This document shows, piece by piece, positions 20,872-64,000 of a DNA stretch of 64,000 nt; position 1 is the stretch's first letter, and each line of letters opens with the position of its first letter. Location: NCBI RefSeq assembly GCF_014192515.1, contig NZ_JACHYB010000002.1:868001-932000 (forward strand), written 5' to 3'. The translations under genes and the position numbers were made by a program. The notes under the pieces were generated by a model. The model did no database searches, was not told where the DNA came from, and worked only from the letters and a program-made list of their open reading frames with translations. This DNA is from Microbacter margulisiae. GTDB taxonomy: Bacteria; Bacteroidota; Bacteroidia; Bacteroidales; Paludibacteraceae.

Positions 20872-20950
20872 TAGTTTTACATGATGTTTTGTTCATATAT
20901 GATAGGTTTCCTTCATCATGTAAGGTGTCATAGTAGTTTTCCCAACTGTT

Positions 20951-21218
20951 TTATAGGCTTTGCAAGCTCAATTCCGCGAAAACAAGCTGACATTGGCAAA
21001 ATACAGTTTAAAGTTGGCAAGTGTAACCTTGTATTGGCGAGATACGGCTTGCATTGGCGAAAAACACATTGATTTTGGCGAATGTAAGTTCACATTGGCG
21101 AAAATCAGGTTGCAGTTGGCAAATGCGTCCTTACTTTGGCGAGAAACAACATGAATCTGGCGAATGCAGGCTTACATTATGACTTTGCAAGCTTACATTG
21201 GCGAGAATCATCTTGCAA
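20951..21218. repeat. Tandem array with 20/21-bp period (TTGGCGAA units)
   Basis: About 13 degenerate units, most starting TTGGC, at 20993, 21014, 21034, 21054, 21075, 21095, 21116, 21136, 21157 (CTGGC), 21178 (degenerate) and 21198, with two weaker units before. Steps are 20 or 21 bp, mean about 20.5, close to two turns of B-DNA. From 21054 on, units alternate between a type with GAATG after TTGGC and a type with GAAAA or GAGAA, so the higher-order repeat is about 41 bp. Because 41 is not a multiple of three, the array cannot encode a periodic peptide. It lies 80 bp beyond the HTCS stop codon. Confidence 0.85.
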
Positions 21219-21301
21219 ACCATGTACCTGACTTCCTTTTTGCCTTGTCGTAAAAAGGAAGTAAATAGGGGCTTGTAGTACTTGCGAAAGGTGAAATAAC
21301 A

Positions 21302-59237: not shown

Positions 59238-61172
59238 GTGAACACACCGAAACTTGAATCAGCATTAAAAAAACTATTCATCATAAATCTTTTCTGTTTA
59301 TTCTCTCTCACCGGAAAATCACAGAACAGCCAAATTAATCTGGTTAATTCCGGTTTTGAAAATAAGAATCTTACCCCTTGGATAATTATTGGTAATGGCG
59401 CCACCCTTTCGAATACCACTGTACATTCCGGAAACCAATCGGTGGAAATCAGTGCGGGGACTATCGTCCGGATGCCCATCACACTTAAGCCCTCATCTGT
59501 ATATGAACTGACCGGATGGCTGAAGACCGAAAGTGGTTCGGGAGAAGTCAAGATAGACATTACCGGGGTGGGAGATCATAATACGGGAGTTTCCAGTGCA
59601 CTGGCCGACTGGAAAAAAGTAAAACTTAAATTTACAACCGGAGCTGATCAAACTAAAGCTAATGTTGACATCCAAAATCCGGAAAATATTTCAAATCTAA
59701 AAGCTTGGGCAGATGATATCAATATAAAATACCTGGGTAAATATGTACCACAATCCATCAAAGGCATCCATCCTTTGTCTCCACGCATCCCCGTAAGCGA
59801 TCTAGGTATCCGGCAACAAAATAATTCGAAAATGGCTTGGCTTTTGGATGCAAAGTTCGGCATGATGATCCATTGGGGATTATATTCCGGACCAGCCCAG
59901 GGAGAATGGTATATGGAAAACAAAGGAATATTGCCTAAAGAATATGATAAGCTTGCTTATCCGGAAAGTGGGAAATTCTATTTTGCGGCAGATAAATTTA
60001 ATGCCGATCATTGGGCATCCTTAGCCAAGGTGGCAGGAATGAAATTTATGGTCATGGTTACGATGCATCATGAGGGATATGCTCTTTTCAAGACTGCATT
60101 CCCGGGCGCCTTCACCAGTGAACAGACCCATCATCGGGATTTTGTAAAAGCCTATGTAAAAGCCTGCCGCAAATATGGATTAAAGGTGGGATTATACAAA
60201 ACCCTGATCAATTGGCAATATCCCGGTTATTATGATGTTACCGGAACAGACTGCAAGCCGAATACCTTTGGATACACTACCAACATCGCACATAAAGAAA
60301 ACGCCCGGTTGATGAAGAATGAACTCTATTGCCAGACAAAGGAGTTAATGACCCATTACGGCAAAATTGATTTGCTGTTTTGGGACGGAGGATGGATTGC
60401 CCAGCAGGGAACAGATGCCCAGGGAGACTATTTTTGGGAACCGGGAAAATATCTCAATCCAAATAATCCATGGCCGGTAGATCGCAAATATCAGGTTTTG
60501 GATAAAACAACAGGGATTCCTTTAGGGTTGATGGGTATTGTTCGGAAGTATCAACCGGATGTCGTAGCCAATTCACGTTCCGGCTGGATTGGCGACTATG
60601 CAGTCGAAGAGGGCAGTGCTCCCGTTACGGGCCCGGTTCGATCGGAAGAAGTATGGGTGAAAGCCATGAGTATGTCGCCTGCGTGGGGTTATACGCCTTA
60701 TGCCAATGATACTGCCCATGTCATTTCCTATGGAAAATTAAAACGAATGATAGCTGACTGTGTGGTTCGCAACATGATACTACTGTTGAATGTCGGCCCC
60801 GACAGGCATGGTCAGATACCCGGCTTAGAACAAGATGTACTGAGAAAGACCGGACAATGGCTTAAATACGTAGGCGTTGCTGTTTACGGCACGCGGGGAG
60901 GACCATGGAATCCCAAAGATGGCGAATATGGATTTACGTATAAAGGAAATACCATTTATATTTATCTGCTGGACGGATTTAAGGACAAAGAATTTATTGT
61001 TCCTCCTCTGAACAAAGGACAAAAGGTAATCAGGGCCTATTCTGTGACAGATGGGAAACCCGTCACTTTTCAACAAAAAGACAACCAGGGTATAGTATTA
61101 AAAGATTTTCATAGAGAGGATAAAGAGGTTACGATTTTAGCTATTGAATTAAATAAGCCTGTCTTGCCATAA
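59238..61172 (+). CDS. GH29 alpha-L-fucosidase with N-terminal carbohydrate-binding module
   Basis: A 644-residue secreted protein. The start is a GTG (59238); no ATG fits upstream because the nearby ATG frame stops. Signal sequence to about 28, then a CBM4/9-like beta-sandwich (about 35-170; LVNSGFENKNLTPWI, YELTGWLKT). The GH29 barrel begins near 205 (AKFGMMIHWGLYSG) with the nucleophile Asp in LLFWDGGW (about 383). A C-terminal beta domain follows. Third GH29 of the window and the only one with this binding module. It follows GH39 with a gap of 117 bp. Confidence 0.92.
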   Translation: MNTPKLESALKKLFIINLFCLFSLTGKSQNSQINLVNSGFENKNLTPWIIIGNGATLSNTTVHSGNQSVEISAGTIVRMPITLKPSSVYELTGWLKTESGSGEVKIDITGVGDHNTGVSSALADWKKVKLKFTTGADQTKANVDIQNPENISNLKAWADDINIKYLGKYVPQSIKGIHPLSPRIPVSDLGIRQQNNSKMAWLLDAKFGMMIHWGLYSGPAQGEWYMENKGILPKEYDKLAYPESGKFYFAADKFNADHWASLAKVAGMKFMVMVTMHHEGYALFKTAFPGAFTSEQTHHRDFVKAYVKACRKYGLKVGLYKTLINWQYPGYYDVTGTDCKPNTFGYTTNIAHKENARLMKNELYCQTKELMTHYGKIDLLFWDGGWIAQQGTDAQGDYFWEPGKYLNPNNPWPVDRKYQVLDKTTGIPLGLMGIVRKYQPDVVANSRSGWIGDYAVEEGSAPVTGPVRSEEVWVKAMSMSPAWGYTPYANDTAHVISYGKLKRMIADCVVRNMILLLNVGPDRHGQIPGLEQDVLRKTGQWLKYVGVAVYGTRGGPWNPKDGEYGFTYKGNTIYIYLLDGFKDKEFIVPPLNKGQKVIRAYSVTDGKPVTFQQKDNQGIVLKDFHREDKEVTILAIELNKPVLP

Positions 61173-61300
61173 GTGTTCTATGAAAATGCAGCCTTTAGGT
61201 GCAGGAAATTGAGGATTCTTACGAAAAAGATAAATTGGAACTATAGTAAGCAACGGAAATACGTAGTGCCATCAATCTTCCCGGAGTCCATCTACCACAT

Positions 61301-61316
61301 AAAGTCAAATGACTTT
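61301..61316. promoter_or_regulatory. Operator-like inverted repeat upstream of the SASA-domain esterase
   Basis: AAAGTCA-AA-TGACTTT, a perfect 7-2-7 inverted repeat, about 90 bp before the ATG at 61403. It has the size of a dimeric repressor site. No experimental support. Confidence 0.3.
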
Positions 61317-61353
61317 ACAATATGAGAGTGTGCCTGGCTAACCTTACACCCTG

Positions 61354-61379
61354 CTCAACGGAGGGCGCTCTCCGTTGAG
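61354..61379 (+). terminator. Hairpin between GH29 and the SASA-domain esterase
   Basis: A perfect 10-bp stem CTCAACGGAG / CTCCGTTGAG with a 6-nt loop, ending 23 bp before the ATG at 61403. No T-run follows. It could end the GH29 transcript or act as a 5'-leader structure that affects translation of the next gene. Confidence 0.45.
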
Positions 61380-61402
61380 TGTTATAAAAACAAAGCACAA
61401 AC

Positions 61403-62803
61403 ATGAAAAACATTTTCCTTACTATTTGTCTGTTATTGGCAGTGCATTATACGAGCGCCAGAGTGCAACCGAACAGCCTGTTTAGTGATCACATGGTTTT
61501 ACAGAAAGGAGTACCTGTGCCAATATGGGGAACTGCCGATAACGAAACCCGGATAACGGTAAAATTTAATGGACAGACCGTTTCCACCATAGCCCAACAT
61601 GGCAAATGGATGGTAAAACTATCTCCTATGAATTATCTTTTTACTCCATCATCCATGGTCATCACAGGAGAACAAGACACGGTTACTATTCACGATATAT
61701 TGGTAGGAGAAGTCTGGCTGTGTAGCGGACAATCAAATATGGAACGACAATTGGGGCCACGTCCGCCGCAACCTTTGATTGATCATTGGGAACAAGAACG
61801 GGATGCAGCCAACTATCCATTGATCAGAGAATTTTATGTGCCTGAAAAATATGCATCGAAAACTATCAATGACGTGCATGGCAACTGGACGGTTTGTTCT
61901 CCTAAAACTGTAACAAACTTTTCGGCTGTAGGGTATCTTTTTGCCCGAGATCTCTATCAACAGTTGAAAGTTCCTGTCGGTATTCTTTTTTCAGCCTATG
62001 GAGGAACTCCTGCCGAAGACTGGACAAGTAAAGCTGCCTTAGATGGCAATCCGGAACTTAAACATCTGGCAGAACATTACGATTCGGTTATGGATGCGCA
62101 CTGGCATCCGGAGGGTGAAGTCATGAACGGATTGTACAATGGAATGATCTACCCGCTTATTCCTTTTGCTGTAAAAGGAGTAGCATGGTATCAGGGAGAA
62201 AACAACAGTTGGCGCCCCAGGCAGTATGCCATTGTGCTGGCAAATATGATTAAAGACTGGCGGCAAGATTTTCATCAGGGCAATTTCCCATTTCTGATCG
62301 TTCAGATAACTCCCAACAAAGACATGGTTCCCGAATTAAGGGAATCTCAATTCAAAGTATCTCAAAAGATAAAAAATACAGCTTTGATCGTGACCACTGA
62401 CTGTGGGGATGCCAATCAGATCCATTCTCCACACAAACAACCGGTAGGTGAAAGACTAGCCCTTGCCGCCAGAGCACTGGCCTACAAAGAAAAAATTGAG
62501 TATTCGGGGCCTACTTTCCATTCGTTCAAAATTGAAAAGAATAAAATTATTCTCCATTTCACCCACACTGGAGAAGGGTTATCCACCAAAGGAACCGGAG
62601 TATTGAGAGGATTTACCATTGCTGGAAACAATAATCGTTTCGTGCCGGCAACTGCAATAATGAAAGACCGGGAAGTGATAGTGTACAGCAATCAGATTCA
62701 GAACCCTGTTGCTGCACGGTATGGATGGGCAAATGTTCCTGATGTCAATTTATATAACAGCGAAGGACTTCCTGCCTCGCCTTTCAGTACAGATAGTAAT
62801 TAA
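61403..62803 (+). CDS. Sialate-O-acetylesterase-domain (SASA) carbohydrate esterase
   Basis: A 466-residue secreted SGNH-fold esterase. Signal peptide about 19 residues. An N-terminal beta domain (LFSDHMVLQKG, VPVPIWG) is followed by the SASA domain with nucleophile Ser in WLCSGQSNME (about 112), the Gly motif AYGGTPAEDW, WYQGENN, and the Asp/His pair in DANQIHSPHK. Homologous domains deacetylate sialic acids, and the CE20 family includes a xyloglucan acetylesterase with this fold. In this neighbourhood a plant-glycan acetylesterase is more likely. Length is within the Bacteroidetes short form. Confidence 0.9.
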   Translation: MKNIFLTICLLLAVHYTSARVQPNSLFSDHMVLQKGVPVPIWGTADNETRITVKFNGQTVSTIAQHGKWMVKLSPMNYLFTPSSMVITGEQDTVTIHDILVGEVWLCSGQSNMERQLGPRPPQPLIDHWEQERDAANYPLIREFYVPEKYASKTINDVHGNWTVCSPKTVTNFSAVGYLFARDLYQQLKVPVGILFSAYGGTPAEDWTSKAALDGNPELKHLAEHYDSVMDAHWHPEGEVMNGLYNGMIYPLIPFAVKGVAWYQGENNSWRPRQYAIVLANMIKDWRQDFHQGNFPFLIVQITPNKDMVPELRESQFKVSQKIKNTALIVTTDCGDANQIHSPHKQPVGERLALAARALAYKEKIEYSGPTFHSFKIEKNKIILHFTHTGEGLSTKGTGVLRGFTIAGNNNRFVPATAIMKDREVIVYSNQIQNPVAARYGWANVPDVNLYNSEGLPASPFSTDSN

Positions 62804-63392
62804 AGATGTTTATGACCGAAGAAAATAATAGTTCTATCTAACGGTTACAACAAACATCTTCTGATTTTTAGCTGCAAAAGCAAAACAAGTTTCACCCTAA
62901 AACTGAAATTATAACCAGGAGAAATTACGATCTACCCTGGATTCTCTTAAGATTGCAGTACTGCGTTTCGTTTTTCGTGTTATTTCTTCTTTCGTTTTCA
63001 ATTCTTTACAACTTATCCTTCCAAATTAAATCCTGCTCTGTTGCCTCATCCATGCCGGGTTCGAGGTGTCGCTCATTGTGGCATTGCTCAACATCAAAAA
63101 AAGAATCGCTTTATGTGTTCCGGTCGAACATCAGGAAGAAGCTGGAACTGGATAAAGATGAGAATCTCTCCTCATTTCTTGCCAAAAAACAGGTGCCTTT
63201 TCAGGGCAATTTATAGGGCTTTTTGATCAGTTAATATGCTTACATTTTCAAAAGCCTGTATTTGATTGAATATTAACTAAATGCGAATCGTTAAATAACG
63301 CAAAGTTAATATGTCGGTTTTTTTGAACTGTACAGTCCAACTCTGTTATTATCCCTTACTTTGTGGCGCCCACCCATTCAAAATCAAATACT
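62804..63392. other. Intergenic region after the esterase
   Basis: About 590 bases. Small frames (for example 62953-63216) are overlapping and unlike known proteins, so I do not call them. The region marks the end of the polysaccharide block. Confidence 0.4.
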
Positions 63393-63944
63393 ATGAGCGC
63401 TGCTTATTTTTATCCAGAATCTGCTTTACTGCCATTTCGTTCGATTATTCATCCGATGCAACAGATGAATATTGTTCCCGATATAAACCGGCAAACATCA
63501 ATATCCATTGCTATGCTTCTCCGCACAGTCCGGGTCTTACAAAATGACATAGCTTTTATGCAATCCGGGATTTACCCTATGCAATGTTACACAGACTCTG
63601 TGCAACGTGGAATTCACCCTGTGTCATGTTACACAGGTGCAATGCAACGTAACATTTACACTGTACCATGTTACCCAGATACAATACCACGTAACATTAA
63701 CCTTATGCAGCGTTCCATAAGAACTGTGCAACGTGGAATTTATCTTATGCAATGTTCTACTGACATTATACAACATGGAATTTTCCTTGTGCACCATTAC
63801 ATCGGTAGTATGCAACGTGGAATTCACCCTGTGCAACGTTGCACAGACCTTATACAACGTCGCACAGACAGTTTACATTCTATGCTTTACATCATGGGCA
63901 GTGATACACATAGCGTTCTTATAAACAATCAATTATTCACTTAA
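63393..63944 (+). CDS. Possible heptad-repeat protein encoded over a 21-bp array
   Basis: An open frame of 183 codons from the ATG at 63393. The first 50 residues are not repeated (MSAAYFYPESALLPF); the rest follows seven-residue periods such as MQRGIHP, VQRCTDL and MQRNIYT. Because the DNA unit is 21 bp and free of stop codons, all frames through the array tend to stay open, also on the other strand. So the frame may not be a gene. It would end 12 bp before the next start codon. Confidence 0.25.
   Translation: MSAAYFYPESALLPFRSIIHPMQQMNIVPDINRQTSISIAMLLRTVRVLQNDIAFMQSGIYPMQCYTDSVQRGIHPVSCYTGAMQRNIYTVPCYPDTIPRNINLMQRSIRTVQRGIYLMQCSTDIIQHGIFLVHHYIGSMQRGIHPVQRCTDLIQRRTDSLHSMLYIMGSDTHSVLINNQLFT
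63538..63915. repeat. Tandem array with exact 21-bp period (TGCAACGTGGAA units)
   Basis: About 18 units with no change of register: TGCAA or its variants at 63559, 63580, 63601, 63622, 63643, 63664, 63685, 63706, 63727, 63748, 63769, 63790, 63811, 63832, 63853, with degenerate units at both ends (63538, 63874, 63895). Units of type TGCAACGTGGAATT and of type TGCAATGTTACACA alternate over much of the array, giving a 42-bp higher-order repeat. It lies directly upstream of the gene that begins at 63957. Confidence 0.9.
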
Positions 63945-63956
63945 ATTTTTATTTTT

Positions 63957-64000
63957 ATGAAGAAAATCAGAGCACTTTACGACTTTATCCGGTTTCCTAT
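63957..64000 (+). CDS. Start of an unidentified gene (cut by window end)
   Basis: ATG at 63957 after an AT-rich leader, reading MKKIRALYDFIRFP before the window ends. Too short to identify. It begins 40 bp after the repeat array. Confidence 0.4.
   Translation, partial: MKKIRALYDFIRFP

Follow-up and report, generated by a model that had tools for sequence, protein, structure and literature searches.

Introduction

Among the closest described relatives of the element analyzed here are the plasmid iterons and tandem operators, which are direct repeats of ~19–22 bp lying upstream of a gene in phase with the DNA helix, with inverted symmetry in many of the units. REP elements are dispersed palindromic copies of a single sequence with a transposase (RAYT) as partner. 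In the contingency loci formed by variable numbers of tandem repeats (VNTR) in promoters the upstream units are homogeneous and are gained or lost whole, and the period differs between loci. Regulatory DNA is usually found through a common sequence. Direct repeats of the heptamer TAACTGA, of period 7, have been described in Beggiatoaceae, Cyanobacteria and some Bacteroidetes; these are intergenic, many before start codons, with two sets in Paludibacter propionicigenes, and show no pattern in the downstream genes (PMC4679880).

The arrays that we describe share with iterons and tandem operators the helix-phased direct repeats upstream of a gene, with dyads kept among units and relatives. They differ in that there are many copies per genome, the sequence is specific to the locus, and the product of the adjacent gene had, in the searches made, no match among initiator or repressor families. 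We have not filed them as either kind, because this would require that a binder and a function be shown. Unlike the TAACTGA repeats, they have a period of ~21 or 42 bp and a varying sequence, and they stand before one kind of gene (PMC4679880). As with REP/RAYT there are palindromic repeats beside one gene family, but these are tandem and locus-specific, and the partner is a helical-FN3 protein, so that they are not members of that class. Like CRISPR arrays they are evenly spaced units near an associated gene, but they lack an invariant repeat with unique spacers, the similarity is graded over whole units and the period is at most 42 bp, which sets them outside that class too; by eye, no cas genes were noticed among the ORFs at the array loci. 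In contrast to promoter VNTR loci, one period is found across >100 loci, and arrays can be highly degenerate.

Results

A phased array directly before a gene

The source genome, that of Microbacter margulisiae, comprises 3.56 Mb in two contigs, of which the window is the 64,000-nucleotide stretch C2:868001-932000. The gene that follows the array belongs to what we call family A. The relevant features are:

62953..63216, + strand: remnant of a regulator-like ORF, with a long open counterpart upstream of paralog L008 (similarity by eye)
63030..63410, + strand: leader 5′ of the array; its identity to the corresponding leader at paralog L008 is 93.4%
63393..63944, + strand: open frame spanning the array, judged not to be a gene
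63547..63882, + strand: array core, in exact register throughout, made up of eight double units of 42 bp and thus of sixteen 21-bp units
63957..64000, + strand: start of the family A gene, which leaves the window; the whole gene is G000:C2:931957-932571, 204 aa
about 20911-21252, no strand assigned: TTGGC array, an orphan of period 41, beside which a family gene was looked for and none found

The autocorrelation of the array over 300 bp is greatest at a lag of 42 bp, where it reaches 0.64 (window mean 0.27, sd 0.034); the next lags by z-score are 63 bp (0.49) and 21 bp (0.53). Among 500 dinucleotide shuffles of 63300-64000 the maximum was 0.39. Tandem Repeats Finder (TRF) reports 63570-63860 with a period of 42, 6.9 copies, 67% matches and 1% indels. 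Compared with the 42-bp consensus 80 of the 336 positions differ (24%), against 107 of 336 for the best 21-bp consensus, and thus the alternation of two units is real. There are no indels relative to the 42-bp consensus, so that the register is kept though a quarter of the positions have changed. The 381-bp leader differs from that of L008 by 24 substitutions and one gap, on which basis a few indels might be expected in the array. Although these leaders are near-identical, the arrays that follow them have just a weak residue in common. Elsewhere in its own genome the array has one 20-bp match; otherwise it matches only itself, including an 18-bp inverted internal match. The open frame that spans it was judged not to be a gene because the differences between units are spread evenly over the codon positions (27, 29, 24). 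Degenerate edges extend to about 63538 and 63915, and ~75 bp separate the array from the downstream ATG.

The exact 21-bp register and the two-unit pattern of 42 bp that made up the original prediction are upheld by the autocorrelation, the shuffles and the consensus counts, as is the position directly before a gene start, the real ATG being at 63957. The about 18 units then proposed become 16 clear 21-bp units, and an array is present over the proposed extent of 63538..63915, but with fuzzy ends around a clear core of 63547-63882. The TTGGC array, which had been given the same period, has one of 41 bp, not 42 (with a shorter analysis window 61 ties with 41). To call the two arrays unrelated proved too strong; the class is indeed held by spacing, but stretches of 31 and 37 bp of the TTGGC array match array units of paralogs L010/L011 at 94 and 92%.

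Arrays in the source genome

The family A gene is found at 12 places in the genome, and 11 of the 12 paralogs have an array of their own, directly upstream and of 41, 42 or 21 bp in 10 cases. At L016 the array lies beyond an inserted transposase gene, part of an element that we take to be IS256-like. L015 lacks its first residues and adjoins the same element, and no array was found there within 15 kb. The element (~1.45 kb) is seen beside the array, or between array and gene, at L026, L027 and L183, sitting as if it favoured the places of arrays; the copies in L026 and L027 are 100% identical, and that in L183 was judged from its ORF.

The rest of the genome was sampled by 29 control stretches of 20 kb and by random 1-kb tiles. 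Three of the 29 stretches hold an array with its best period in the class at a stricter cut. That at L034 stands before a 224-aa gene of a second family, B, while L182 and L183 have no family gene, L183 being again beside the IS; with the TTGGC array of the window these are arrays without a gene. Other repeats in the control stretches have best periods of 11, 12, 14, 23 or 64–67 bp. Arrays with the 64–67-bp period lie at L028:8453-9660 and L173:631-5341 in contig C1 of this genome, one of them beside paralog L017; both are likely to be CRISPR repeats with their spacers. Near paralogs L010/L011 (L021, L022) a stretch with 33-bp periodicity is found, together with a ~380-bp repeat present in several copies, and AT-rich 11/22-bp repeats of similar sequence occur in unrelated places at L189:18198-18440 and L190:6631-6850.

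By eye, a regulator-like gene or its remnant (LuxR-, AraC-, Crp- or GntR-like) lies upstream of the array at 10 of 13 loci in this genome; outside the family of the window a regulator-like appearance is not the rule, most of the upstream genes having none.

Arrays in other genomes

How widespread is the association? With the source genome counted, family A was found in 8 of 101 genomes at the level of the taxonomic family, 25 of 295 at that of the order, where some matches are the FN3 part of larger proteins, and 42 of 395 at that of the phylum, where most are. Named genomes with the family include Methylococcaceae and Crenothrix MAGs and Sphingobacterium isolates, and 12 genomes reached through such named loci have 12–25 matches each. 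Family B was found in 5 of 295 and 2 of 395 genomes, and a third family, C, in 7 of 247.

From these, 163 loci were taken, leaving out FN3-part matches in larger proteins, second records of loci of the source genome, the fragment L084, the family B locus L194 (28 bp upstream) and matches without a fetched locus. Seven loci with <400 bp upstream and 13 duplicates were then dropped to leave 143; L016 is among the duplicates because its nearest kilobase is the IS, and L064 (same-genus genome G060, a Paludibacter MAG) has the same sequence as L069. An upstream array, defined by an autocorrelation of 0.5, a threshold of our own choosing, with ends set automatically, is present at 113 of the 143 loci in Bacteroidota and Methylococcaceae-type MAGs, the other 30 falling below the threshold; loci from one genome or clade are not independent in this count. 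By family the figures are 94/120 for A, 9/9 for B and 10/14 for C. In a scan of 14–49 bp the best period is 42 in 71 arrays, 21 in 34, 41 in four, 40 in three and 20 in one, and there is no other. A wider scan (10–69 bp) places the peak of L057 at 63 bp (0.73, compared with 0.52 at 42), and likewise that of L044; both are multiples of 21.

Controls gave far fewer arrays. Downstream of the gene 15 of 133 loci have one, seven of them in the period class. Above the cut are 14 of 580 random 1-kb tiles of the source genome (eight in class, one being the L034 array), six of 119 tiles away from the gene in the named loci (none in class) and six of 1430 mononucleotide shuffles. By our own estimate there is very little doubt that the class of arrays exists; it is large, apparently undescribed, and present in at least two distant bacterial groups.

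The associated proteins

The product of the window gene is predicted to consist of a helical bundle and an FN3-like domain. The AlphaFold2 model (pLDDT 91.8) has N-terminal helices and a beta sandwich, and the pTM of 0.54 makes the arrangement of the domains uncertain. A Foldseek search with this model gave 165 matches in the PDB at E ≤ 0.001, and most of the best 50 are FN3 domains aligned on the sandwich; among those 50 none falls on the helical part and none is a DNA-binding fold. In a further search with the N-terminal domain the matches listed nearly all contain FN3. Pfam fn3 was found in three of 10 family A members, and with the Foldseek matches this places family A among FN3 proteins, though the family search matched no family to the protein of the window itself. 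No DNA-binding, initiator, repressor or partition family matched family A in the family and structure searches made. Matches in PHROGs are weak, the best being a 'major tail protein' family (three of 10 members, E 0.0002), which we take as FN3 likeness.

The predicted model of the family B protein (pLDDT 88.8) has the same order of elements as that of family A: a short strand is followed by three long helices, then by a short helix with a strand, and finally by the sandwich; family A has one additional short helix. This comparison is one of the order of predicted elements. Homology in sequence was tried and rejected as a link, since the profiles give no secure connection (hhalign probability 3%, E 0.014). 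Family C, at 124 aa, has by eye no FN3 domain and the length of the helical part alone, from which we infer its relation to A and B. Behind the family B gene, at L034:2689-4522, come genes that look by eye like a muramidase and a holin, a pair resembling those of phage lysis.

Symmetry of the units and inheritance with the gene

The units are dyad-symmetric. The score is 5.48 compared with 3.81 in column-permuted arrays (sd 0.13, 52 arrays), and by a second score 3.04 compared with 2.14 (sd 0.05, 62 arrays). Units of 21 bp tend to have one purine-rich and one pyrimidine-rich half (z 5.6). In 65 arrays GGAA/TTCC is enriched 2.4-fold over the permuted level, compared with 1.17-fold over mononucleotide shuffles in 59 flanks; k-mer excesses of this kind are partly compositional, because column permutation destroys dinucleotide order. 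A Bacteroidota promoter motif, TANNTTTG, favors neither strand in the DNA to either side of 76 arrays, and placement of a promoter by this means was rejected.

The sequence of the arrays follows that of the genes. All 1,540 pairs of 56 arrays were compared, each pair being scored as above 12/12 permutations or not and binned by protein identity. The fraction above runs 7, 11, 15, 28, 56, 43, 71 and 75% over rising bins, from 7% for pairs without protein similarity, through 28% at 40–50%, 56% at 50–60% and 43% at 60–70% identity, to 71–75% above 70% (the last bin being >85%). For the flanks it is 5–9% of pairs up to 50% identity, and at 50–60% it is 12% for DNA before the array and 25% between array and gene. 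Above 60% identity the spacer between array and gene is at least as similar as the array (73% compared with 43% of pairs at 60–70%), and therefore the contrast in conservation rests on the 40–60% range. It is suggestive and not exact, since the test on arrays gains power from having many copies to compare; the array control was column permutation on both strands and the flank control shuffling on one. Thus the arrays seem to hold their motif for longer than the neighboring intergenic DNA. Similarity that tracks protein identity indicates that arrays are inherited with the gene, with occasional replacement.

Individual pairs illustrate this. At L013/L016 the 1,845 bp upstream are 97.2% identical and the genes 75% identical in DNA, yet the arrays are no more similar than permuted controls. 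The arrays of L006/L008 retain a weak residue (21 compared with 10.8, a score that none of 100 permutations reached). A single 41-bp gap separates L007 from L009. Between L056 and L062 there is a single 42-bp gap, within the array or at its edge, with two single-base gaps nearer the gene and many small gaps in the more distant upstream DNA. No difference is seen between L010 and L011, and one of 16 bp, at the far edge, between L045 and L046; in L056/L057 and L095/L119 the gaps are several, of mixed lengths, and only partly sum to units. L010/L011 and L007/L009 lie in segmental duplications. Homogeneity also varies, from 0.98 at lag 42 in L013 to 0.64–0.70 in the decayed array of the window. 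The proteins of L007, L008 and L009 look recombined, the N-terminal part of L007 deriving from L009 and its C-terminal part from L008; the L007 array goes with that of L009, unlike the L008-type C-terminal part of its protein.

The original prediction was of a class defined by spacing and not by sequence, which would fall if the genome had no further arrays. Those beside the paralogs bear out the class, and its spacing is held while sequences differ. The arrays are not sequence-free, however, because their similarity follows that of the genes, dyads are present and GGAA/TTCC is enriched. The array was also described as if it were an upstream region, and it does lie upstream of a gene; its tie to one kind of gene could not be seen from the window.

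Discussion

We consider the chances about even that the array offers a dimeric DNA-binding protein a series of sites, and that it is inherited with the gene that it probably controls. It would then be a non-coding element acting at the level of DNA and belonging to the downstream gene. With dyad-symmetric sites two helical turns apart, copies of one such dimer could line up along the same face of the helix, and the bound dimers would set expression of the helical-FN3 gene in the manner of tandem operators or iterons. Array and gene would pass on as one cassette, the binding sequence drifting with the clade of the gene while spacing and symmetry are kept. Spacing in helical turns, symmetric units, position before the gene and similarity that follows the clade together point to cooperative binding of dimers acting on this gene. 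We infer the binding, the dimeric state and the target from these features. Periods of 40–42 bp are four helical turns, and suit DNA rather than codons; a 10.5-bp component in the variability along units (z 3.0) also speaks for this reading.

What might the binder be? The candidates are the product of the gene itself, a neighboring regulator and a common factor. That the array is the operator of the neighboring regulator is an idea made attractive by the 10 of 13 loci of this genome, but it was rejected, since L013 and L016 have the same upstream region (97%), including by eye an AraC-like regulator, and unlike arrays, and since regulator-like genes are by eye mostly lacking upstream outside the family of the window; the L013/L016 pair is evidence against such a regulator as binder. 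A gene product that bound its own array would explain their co-divergence, but a DNA-binding fold was not seen in it. An extended version of this, which we think unlikely, is a class of cassettes in distant groups, each with a helical-bundle protein with or without FN3, in which the product of each paralog would recognize its own array.

It is a little less likely again that the arrays are architectural DNA, bending or supercoiling through spacing alone with no specific binder. Whatever its sequence, DNA that repeats at a multiple of the helical repeat will bend coherently, and a period of two or four turns with unlike sequences is as expected; the 10.5-bp component of variability fits as well, and AA/TT and AAA have some 10.5-bp signal (z 3.1 and 5.2). 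But AA/TT and AAA peak at 7 bp, and phased A-tracts were rejected on an A/T content that is unphased at 10.5 bp (z −1.6, 62 arrays). Moreover the sequence follows the clade of the gene, bending has no need of strong dyads, and three turns (31–32 bp) is never the best period in the 14–49-bp scan.

The same low standing goes to a neutral satellite, in which slippage or unequal crossing over would create the arrays and duplication spread them before they decay, with the gene as passenger. The coexistence of homogeneous and decayed arrays, the unit-sized gaps, the segmental duplications and the orphan arrays would all fit such a history. Satellites would not, however, all choose 21 or 42 bp, nor precede three kinds of gene in distant groups, and the retention of sequence beyond that of the flanks at 40–60% identity and the lack of indels at 24% divergence are also against it.

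We regard it as rather improbable that the array is transcribed and each unit forms a hairpin, as a leader RNA or small RNAs. The folding energy on the gene strand lies below that of column-permuted controls (mean z −2.0, 61 arrays), but the opposite strand is equal (−2.2), so neither strand is favored. In 40 arrays compensatory double changes number 29 compared with 31.3 expected, and paired columns have 118 G-U and 123 A-C cells, giving no compensation. The sequence TGGAGCA in L014, L091 and L105 had suggested hairpins whose loop is fixed while the stems vary freely; these were rejected on the absence of compensatory changes in these 40 arrays. The single Rfam match in 61000-64000 of the window is to a miRNA model on the minus strand, far below the gathering score (E 0.19). 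With no covarying pairs, the arrays do not belong to a structured-RNA family.

Plasmid iterons, too, are direct repeats of ~21 bp ahead of a gene, and dyads with phasing would fit cooperative loading at a replication or centromere-like partition site for which the gene product served as adaptor. This is very unlikely given the 12–25 gene matches per genome in 12 genomes and the lack of a match to initiator or partition families in the searches made. An origin in phage or plasmids was rejected in its own right, the protein of the window having no match in phage or plasmid collections and none of its 48 pattern matches in IMG/VR being confirmed.

That the arrays encode a heptapeptide-repeat protein can be dismissed as highly improbable, for although open frames are in excess (1.77 compared with 1.10 column-permuted, 52 arrays; in part compositional, as for the k-mers) and at L006 and L008 one frame runs from a common ATG to just before the gene, codon-phase constraint is absent, variability having no period-3 signal (z −2.1) and third positions taking 0.338 and 0.330 of the differences in singly open frames on the two strands, and the 40- and 41-bp arrays cannot keep a reading frame.

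An array with its gene, in which spacing is kept while sequence drifts, was not found named in the family, RNA or literature searches; no description of the class was found in the open-access literature, subscription papers being outside the scope of that search. We therefore present it as new; should the binder turn out to be a regulator of an established type, the class would be a variation on something already known. Since what the arrays have in common is period, symmetry and the gene that follows, searches based on sequence miss the class.

The row of dimer sites that we favor would be directly testable, as regards both binder and turnover, in the pairs with near-identical flanks but unlike arrays. 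Two protein families of unknown function, alike in the order of elements in their models, are linked by the class, and an array before a gene is a single expected signature that can be looked for in many genomes. Should each paralog product prove to recognize its own array, there would be up to about 25 parallel circuits in a genome, insulated from one another, in which recognition diverges while the geometry stays fixed.
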